Below are positions 34,943 to 36,280 of a DNA stretch of 64,000 nt, one piece after another (within the stretch, counting starts at the first letter, position 1; each line of letters starts with the position of its first letter). Position numbers and translations under genes: made by a program. The notes under the pieces were generated by a model. That model did not search any database and was not told where the DNA came from. It saw only the letters and a program-made list of their open reading frames with translations. This DNA is from Curtobacterium flaccumfaciens (lineage in GTDB: Bacteria; Actinomycetota; Actinomycetes; Actinomycetales; Microbacteriaceae): positions 1 through 64,000 of the forward strand of contig NZ_SNVW01000011.1 in NCBI RefSeq assembly GCF_004361695.1. Reading direction: 5' to 3'.

Positions 34943-34953
34943 TCCGTCGTACC

Positions 34954-34990
34954 GGAAGGGCCCCGCACGCTGCGCGTGCGGGGCTCTTCC
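34954..34990. terminator. Hairpin terminator of groEL
   Basis: GCCCCGCACGC pairs with GCGTGCGGGGC around a 3-nt loop, with GGAAG/CTTCC extending the stem. It is 12 bp past the stop. Confidence 0.85.
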
Positions 34991-35034
34991 GCGTGCCGGG
35001 CCCGGGATCGCACTTCGTGCGCACACGCTCCGGT

Positions 35035-35052
35035 GAGATCGCACTTCGGCGG
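35035..35052. repeat. 18-bp direct repeat, left of the DUF559 gene
   Basis: GAGATCGCACTTCGGCGG is repeated exactly at 36149-36166 on the other side of the DUF559 gene. Related inverted pieces (GAAGTGCGACTTC near 35077; ATCGCACTTCGTGCG near 35008) are close, so each side can form hairpins. Confidence 0.8.
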
Positions 35053-35106
35053 CCATCGGCGGGCCGATCACCAGCGGAAGTGCGACTTCGGCGTCGGCCG
35101 ATGCCG

Positions 35107-36012
35107 TCAGGACGACCGGCGTCGATGCTCGAACGCGCGACGAAGGTGCTCGAACACCGTCGCTGGTCGAGCAAGGTCGACGGATGTCGCCCGGATCACG
35201 ACCCAGCCTTCGGAGGTGAAGTCGTTGCCCCTGCTCCGGTCTCGTCGAAATGCGTCCCGGTCGGTTCGGTGGTGATCACCGTCGTACTCGAGAGCGATGC
35301 GCAGATCCGGCCATGCCATGTCCGCGCGGCCGATCAACCGACCGTCGGCGGCGTGCACGTCGACGTTGAGGGCGGGCTCGGGAAAGCCGGCATCGACGAC
35401 CATCAGCCGCAGATTCGTCTCCGTCGGCGACTCCGCGCCGGTCCGGATCCGCTCGACCGCTGATCGAGCGCGCACGACGCCGCGGTCGCCCGCTCTGATC
35501 GTCACCGAGAGCTGTTCGAGGGTGGTGAGGCGACCGACGCCCACCATGTGGTCGCCAAGGATCACCAGGTCACGTGTGCTCAGCACCGTCCGGCACTCGT
35601 ACCAGGCCGCAGCGGGCGTGCTGACCCTGGTGCCGAAGACCGTTGTGGAGCGAGCTCGGTCGGCAGCGACACGGTGGCCGACAACCTGCTGGCGTCGTTC
35701 GATCGGCCCCGCTCCGACGGTCGAGACGTGGGCCGTCGAATCGACACGAGTGAGCGCCTGCGGGAGCGGGCAGTTCCAGAGCACCGCGGCCGAGACGTGA
35801 CTCAGGTGCTGGTCGGAGCGGAGCAGGAGGCCGATGGCGATCAGCCGATGCAGGAGTTCGTCCGCGCCGGCAGGGAGACGGACGCCACGTGCGGGTGTTA
35901 TGAGGTCGCGGCGGCGGAGCCGGTCCTTCGCGACGCCCGATGCGAGCGCATCCCGGACGAGGAAGGGCGTGTTCGCGAACCTGCTCGGCAGCGGTCGGGG
36001 TCGGCGGGCCAT
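35107..36012 (-). CDS. DUF559 endonuclease-like protein
   Basis: 301 aa. The N-terminal two thirds (RPRPLPSRFANTPFLVRDAL, then 'LTRVDSTAHVST') have the winged-helix/AbiEi-like layout that often precedes DUF559, and the C-terminal ~100 residues are DUF559, a Vsr/PD-(D/E)XK-type nuclease fold: SPTETNLRLMVVDAGFPEPA, 'GRADMAWPDLRIALEYDGDH' and a final strand EGWVVIRATSVDL. The Glu, Asp and E-Y-D-G-D-H residues are those expected for metal binding. Such stand-alone genes are abundant in Microbacteriaceae and their role is unknown. It is flanked on both sides by the same 18-bp repeat. Confidence 0.82.
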   Translation of the reverse strand: MARRPRPLPSRFANTPFLVRDALASGVAKDRLRRRDLITPARGVRLPAGADELLHRLIAIGLLLRSDQHLSHVSAAVLWNCPLPQALTRVDSTAHVSTVGAGPIERRQQVVGHRVAADRARSTTVFGTRVSTPAAAWYECRTVLSTRDLVILGDHMVGVGRLTTLEQLSVTIRAGDRGVVRARSAVERIRTGAESPTETNLRLMVVDAGFPEPALNVDVHAADGRLIGRADMAWPDLRIALEYDGDHHRTDRDAFRRDRSRGNDFTSEGWVVIRATSVDLARPATVFEHLRRAFEHRRRSS

Positions 36013-36148
36013 GGGGTCCAGCCTGGACACGGTCCGACACGCGCCGCCGAGTGGTGCCTTCGTCGTGGACGAGGTGTCAGCAGGCGCCCCCTGTGGAGGA
36101 CTCGCGAGATCGCAGTCTGTGTCGGTTGAGCGCAGCTTCGGCCGCGGC

Positions 36149-36280
36149 GAGATCGCACTTCGGCGGACTCGCGCGGCGGCGATGCGGCACGAAATGCGAT
36201 CTCGGCGGAAGACGGGCCGGCGCGCGGCGCGGCGGGCCGGCGCGCGGCGCGGCGGGCCGGCGCGCGGCGCGGCGGGCCGG
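36149..36280. repeat. Right copy of the 18-bp repeat and a 3 x 20-bp GC tandem repeat
   Basis: GAGATCGCACTTCGGCGG at 36149-36166 is followed by its partly inverted form (GAAATGCGATCTCGGCGG, 36191-36208). Then CGCGCGGCGCGGCGGGCCGG occurs three times without change at 36221, 36241 and 36261. The gap 36013-36307 contains no gene. Confidence 0.9.

Follow-up and report, generated by a model that had tools for sequence, protein, structure and literature searches.

Organization of the nuclease locus

The window, by which we mean the whole 64-kb stretch of DNA analysed, comes from a genome of Curtobacterium, a genus of soil and plant bacteria, and contains a gene predicted to encode a nuclease-related protein, with groL on one side and a histidine (sensor) kinase gene on the other (both named from reading the translations; Table 1). 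The exact 18-mer GAGATCGCACTTCGGCGG is present on both sides of the gene (35035–35052 and 36149–36166, + strand), as the earlier note had recorded, and the inverted partners that it saw near each copy are accounted for by larger structures, in that each 18-mer is the first arm of an imperfect palindrome of ~55 bp. As single-stranded DNA, both palindromes fold better than shuffled sequences (z −3.1 for the 3′ and −4.1 for the 5′ palindrome). The outermost arms of the region are inverted repeats of each other, at 89% over 19 nt. There are no further matches to the 18-mer with three or fewer mismatches in the window (0.34 expected from shuffles), and Rfam reports nothing at its gathering threshold between 34900 and 36400.

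Two other repeats are close by. A strong hairpin 3′ of groL (CGGAAGGGCCCCGCACGC..., 34953–34991) is kept in most relatives and is probably the groL terminator, outside the nuclease-palindrome unit. A short tandem GC-rich repeat (cgggccggcgcgcggcg..., 36211–36280) separates the 5′ palindrome from the histidine kinase gene.

Table 1. Features of the nuclease locus (window positions, or residues where stated)
Feature	Position	Strand	Basis or remark
Nuclease gene, 301-aa protein	35107–36012	−	ORF and weak Pfam match (PF18741)
AbiEi-like N-terminal part of the protein	about residues 4–190		VIA-align
Vsr/I-Bth0305I-like PD-(D/E)XK-type nuclease domain of the protein	about residues 193–300		VIA-align
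55-bp type A palindrome, 3′ side of the nuclease gene, between gene and groL	35035–35089		Holds the first 18-mer
55-bp type A palindrome, 5′ side of the nuclease gene	36149–36203		Holds the second 18-mer
Outer type A arm (GGGATCGCACTTCGTG...), adjoining the 3′ palindrome	35003–35019	+	Left outer arm of the putative unit 35002–36205, within its left terminal inverted repeat, 35002–35020 (+)
Right terminal inverted repeat of the putative unit 35002–36205	36187–36205	−	Inverted pair I3
Degenerate extra arm (GAGATCGCAGTCTGTG...), between gene and 5′ palindrome	36106–36125	+

A predicted nuclease fused to an AbiEi-like fold

Database matches to the protein are weak. Its sole Pfam match is PF18741 (DUF559/REase_MTES_1575), which at 24.4 bits is below the cut-off of 38.2, and there is no NCBIfam match; two relatives from the P2 group of paralogues (see below) do exceed the DUF559 cut-off (23.0 and 23.4 bits vs 20.6). 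An AlphaFold2 model was built from an alignment of 38 sequences (pLDDT 94), and since a Foldseek search of the PDB with this model gave no match at E ≤ 0.001, the structural reading depends on VIA-align. With this program, residues 193–300 align to the catalytic domain of I-Bth0305I (3r3p; Z 12.2 over 96 residues) and to Vsr (1cw0; Z 10.5 over 99 residues), and residues 4–190 align to AbiEi of S. agalactiae (6y8q; Z 11.5 over 176 residues, rmsd 5.6). The model shows the protein as a predicted Vsr/I-Bth0305I-type nuclease fused to an AbiEi-type fold. Four residues, E198, D231, E242 and H248, are invariant in the alignment of 38 relatives and are presumably catalytic.

The protein shares with the Vsr/I-Bth0305I-type (also DUF559/MTES_1575) nucleases the fold of its C-terminal domain and the conserved acidic and histidine residues, but differs from them in its fusion to an AbiEi-like part, in its partnership with dispersed palindromes, and in its sub-threshold Pfam match. 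With AbiEi, a type IV antitoxin (COG5340), it has the N-terminal fold in common; unlike AbiEi it carries a nuclease domain, and the adjacent genes are groL and the sensor kinase gene rather than one for an AbiEii nucleotidyltransferase toxin.

Palindromes flank the nuclease gene in several genera

Of 99 genomes, 85 encode a relative of the protein (E ≤ 1e-10); all 60 Curtobacterium genomes are among these, and in most the gene adjoins groL. The earlier note suggested a small mobile unit, but the simple reading of the 18-mer pair as the mark of a recent insertion at this locus is rejected, because the position next to groL is shared by most of the genus and the gene has largely been inherited there. 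Carriage on plasmids or phages is not typical either, given that relatives were found in only 4 of 72,556 records in a plasmid collection and 1 of 50,697 in a phage collection.

The flanks of the groL-type orthologues bear palindromes whose arm sequence varies by clade, and we distinguish four types: A (GAGATCGCACTTC), B (GAGGTCGCACGAANTGCCG), C (GAGGTTCCACGACTCGCC) and D (GCGGTCACGAANTGTCG). The 3′ palindrome of several type A genomes starts at the stop codon (TGA) of the nuclease gene. The generality of the bracketing was assessed using the best ungapped motif shared by both flanks. The set comprised 103 distinct nuclease genes, each flanked on either side by 300 bp or more (genes with shorter flanks and duplicates being left out), and 385 control positions of the same length from the same loci. 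A score of at least 16 is reached by 51 of the 103 genes and by none of the controls; in the remaining genes the shared motif is weaker or absent. The bracketed genes include examples from Leifsonia, Microbacterium, Glaciihabitans and Agromyces, in which the bracket sequences are markedly dissimilar.

Dispersed copies of the palindrome

The type A 18-mer is dispersed in its own genome, with 51 places at three or fewer mismatches, compared with 18 for a reversed-pattern control. Eleven copies are exact, nine of them outside the window locus, and perfect type A copies have the form GAGATCGCACTTCGGCGG-N19-CCGCCGAAGTGCGATCTC. Two typed copies have strong potential to fold into a long hairpin (z −11.2 and −9.7). 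We inspected 14 sites away from the nuclease gene using a simple GC3-based gene caller, and none is within a called gene; at the 12 sites with a called gene on both sides, the flanking genes are convergent in seven, tandem in five and divergent in none.

The suggestion that the same repeat might accompany other DUF559 genes of the genome was not borne out: a second DUF559-like gene (C1:146827), whose product is 39% identical to that of the window gene, has no type A arm nearby. The earlier note had also counted it against its idea if the repeat were common away from DUF559 genes, and most copies in this genome are indeed elsewhere. This is, however, what is expected of a REP-like system, and it leaves the idea standing. 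An unrelated common intergenic element is a reading that we reject on the strength of the bracket test and of the matching of arm and nuclease types described below.

Correspondence of arm type and nuclease type

Arms of types A (as an exact pair), B, C and D were counted genome-wide in all 99 genomes, with controls near zero. Matching was examined across 56 genomes, all of which have a groL-type gene, leaving out G009, G023, G074 and G082, which have none among the matches listed. For each type, the median number of copies elsewhere in the genome is higher where the flanks of the nuclease gene carry that type than where they do not (A, 5 vs 0; B, 29 vs 4; C, 19.5 vs 1; D, 25 vs 0). Type B reaches up to 152 arm matches per genome, with tandem arrays, and its matching gives p = 0.045 with loose typing and 4.2e-5 with strict typing, values that ignore phylogeny. 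A fifth family is seen in Leifsonia aquatica, whose bracket arm has 31 matches in its own genome vs none for the control, and one match in total in eight other genomes searched. Five arm families (A–D and that of Leifsonia) are dispersed genome-wide, mostly where the nuclease carries the same type.

The association between enzyme type and abundance of the corresponding palindrome is strong when phylogeny is ignored, with about ten off-pattern genomes and few independent contrasts. Types A, C and D largely coincide with clades of the nuclease tree; the pairing is therefore repeated in few independent lineages, and the two to four phylogenetically independent pairs available per arm type do not give significance. 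There are several kinds of departure from the pattern. One is the presence of B arms in genomes where the groL locus does not account for them: G031 has 47, none of them in its 11-kb groL locus, and G082 has 48 with no groL-type gene among the matches listed. A second is the presence of arms of another type, as in G004 and G032 (16 and 20 C arms despite other nucleases), G005 (16 D arms), and G013 and G030 (type A pairs alongside nucleases of the D clade). The groL locus of G002 is of type D, yet there are 35 C arms in its genome, and a possible explanation is given below.

When compared between sister genomes, the dispersed copies are mostly at the same places, which argues that movement has not been recent; some arrays are present in one genome only.

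Relocation of a bracketed unit

In two species, represented by G006 and G012, an intact type C nuclease gene with both brackets is located away from groL, within an interval of 1290–1291 bp (the unit itself is ~1.2 kb). The same two bounding genes are 27–203 bp apart in the seven other genomes in which both flanks were found; altogether 30 loci were compared, two filled, seven without the unit, and 21 showing one flank only (G002 among these). At the groL site of G006 and G012 two C palindromes still surround a decayed remnant, 561–566 bp apart. Homology between the old (groL) and the new site is confined to the stretch from element to element and ends at the palindromes. Comparison of these sites suggests that the gene and its palindromes can behave as one unit, and G006 and G012 provide the best evidence for it.

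Where G006 and G012 hold the intact unit, G002 has a broken one of type C, consisting of the 5′ palindrome and the 5′ part (C12:92683 region, L262), and this second locus can account for the 35 C arms of a genome with type D at groL.

Paralogues and a possible operator origin

Two groups of paralogues differ from the groL-type genes in the placement of their palindromes. P2 paralogues have a palindrome upstream in 13 of 14 instances and downstream in three of 14, and P3 paralogues have one upstream in 14 of 22 and downstream in none of 22; such a repeat occurs in 8 of 309 control windows. No copies of the P3 arms were found elsewhere in 160 kb sampled of the host genome, and upstream-only palindromes without dispersed copies point to an operator role in this group. 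At five P2 loci (L145, L146, L149, L150 and L196) near-perfect palindromes with arms of about 20–26 bp are located about 100 bp upstream of the nuclease gene, with no downstream copy. The near-perfect palindromes upstream of P2 genes are likely operators.

We infer that the palindrome first served as an autoregulatory operator, and that dispersal arose later, in particular clades. An association between protein and arm fits an operator origin: C-like arms accompany 10 of 11 proteins with T at one helix residue (RLTR), compared with 6 of 45 others, phylogeny being ignored.

These observations raise an alternative for the system as a whole, in which all of the palindromes are binding sites for the AbiEi-like part, the upstream one serves to autoregulate the gene, and the dispersed copies are regulatory or inert and were spread by means other than the nuclease. 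AbiEi has been shown to bind inverted repeats (up to 23 bp) and to repress its own promoter (PMC3985639), and among the paralogues no feature is as constant as the upstream palindrome, which mostly lacks a downstream counterpart and, for P3, has no arms elsewhere in the 160-kb sample. However, operators alone would not account for a downstream copy placed at the stop codon, the tandem arrays, the up to 152 arm matches in a genome, or the relocated bracketed unit, and the preference for convergent and tandem intergenic regions, with none of 12 divergent, also argues against them. We consider this alternative unlikely.

Comparison with REP systems and a proposed mechanism

RAYTs are, to our knowledge, the enzymes that have been linked with extragenic palindromes of bacteria until now. 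No connection between dispersed palindromes and DUF559, Vsr or AbiEi proteins appears in the literature covered (titles and opening abstracts, mostly outside subscription journals). A RAYT origin of the palindromes described here is rejected on the basis of a survey of the Y1 family, in which Y1_Tnp (PF01797; RAYT, IS200) was found in 0 of 37 Curtobacterium genomes.

RAYTs are described as being flanked by inverted REPs, as co-diverging with them, and as correlating with REP abundance (PMC2817692, PMC8266576). Like these RAYT/TnpA-REP REPtrons, the system has a chromosomal gene between inverted palindromes, cognate copies scattered through intergenic DNA, and an enzyme and palindrome that diverge together; a tie of repeat abundance to enzyme type, as in REPtrons, is seen here when phylogeny is ignored. 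In contrast to REPtrons, the enzyme is an AbiEi-like/Vsr-like fusion and not a HUH/Y1 transposase, the element is two-armed and ~55 bp long (arms ~18 bp, spacer ~19 bp), and copies number in the tens, not hundreds to thousands. By eye, the inspected copies have no GTAG or CGTC tetranucleotide beside the palindrome. As the system lacks the defining enzyme (Y1), it is better regarded as a convergent variant of a REPtron than as a member. The analogy with REP-associated transposases, with another class of enzyme, had been proposed in the earlier note, and at the level of arrangement it is well founded in the genome sequences, through the brackets, the clade-specific arms paired with matching dispersed repeats, the Leifsonia example, the intergenic placement, the relocated unit, and the absence of RAYTs. 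That the nuclease binds and cuts the palindromes and has caused their spread is a step that we infer beyond this. Overall, it seems somewhat more probable than not that nuclease and palindromes are partners in a REPtron-like system with an unrelated enzyme.

A simple mechanism can be proposed. The AbiEi-like N-terminal part would probably bind the arms of its cognate ~55-bp palindrome, and the C-terminal Vsr/I-Bth0305I-type nuclease would probably nick or cut at or beside bound palindromes, or at palindrome-like intergenic targets. Repair from another copy, by gene conversion in a homing-like manner, would spread palindromes through intergenic DNA, and the same repair would occasionally copy the whole unit of nuclease gene and brackets. 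Binding specificity and arm sequence would diverge in step, and the palindrome upstream of the gene would probably double as an autoregulatory operator, likely its ancestral role. A broader proposal, which seems slightly less likely than not, is that this represents a second kind of REP system in Actinobacteria, in which an operator palindrome turned selfish and was spread through break repair by a homing-type Vsr nuclease fused to an AbiEi-type DNA-binding part, with a palindrome for each lineage.

Two other explanations are compatible with parts of the data. The palindromes could be an ordinary MITE or REP family moved by some other transposase, with the nuclease gene merely lying among the repeats; many copies are far from any nuclease gene and several genomes have repeats without a matching groL-type nuclease, but the bracketing of 51 of 103 nuclease genes against none of 385 controls, by sequences that differ between clades and genera, and the absence of Y1 transposases from the 37 genomes make this very improbable. 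A defence or genome-marking role, in which the nuclease tells palindrome-bearing from palindrome-free DNA, perhaps to cut DNA entering the cell, and owes its retention to this benefit, finds some encouragement in the AbiEi-like part with its AbiEi-type PADLOC matches and in a Vsr-like DUF559 nuclease of Caulobacter described as connected with DNA damage in the absence of a methyltransferase (PMC12907096), but the PADLOC matches are weak (12.3 bits at best for the window protein, up to 18.8 for relatives), no methyltransferase gene was noticed beside the nuclease gene, and neither the brackets nor the relocation are explained, so that it seems hardly probable.

If the preferred reading, a convergent system with an unrelated nuclease, is correct, enzyme-palindrome partnerships have evolved more than once. 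It would also provide an enzyme whose own flanks reveal its DNA specificity, with five natural enzyme-palindrome pairs with dispersed repeats, and a possible role for the uncharacterised AbiEi/DUF559 fusion proteins of Actinobacteria.

Other inverted repeats

A de novo scan for inverted repeats in 280 kb of G019 yielded 34, of which four are B-like; the same 280 kb contain 16 B arms, compared with none for reversed controls. The scan is dominated by short-loop hairpins, which are probably terminators. One of these, with the core GACGGGAGGC...GCCTCCCGTC, recurs at five G019 sites (L246 11053–11097, L247 9989–10033, L250 4654–4711, L251 19618–19671 and L258 10355–10392) and is probably a repeated terminator family; similar short-loop hairpins (GCCTGGAGGCGCGG..., in L028) are present in the genome of the window. 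G019 also contains an isolated palindrome (L259 10834–10901) with CCTGCAACCGCGGTTGCAGG twice around an A-rich spacer of 28 bp, which is unrelated to the nuclease arms.
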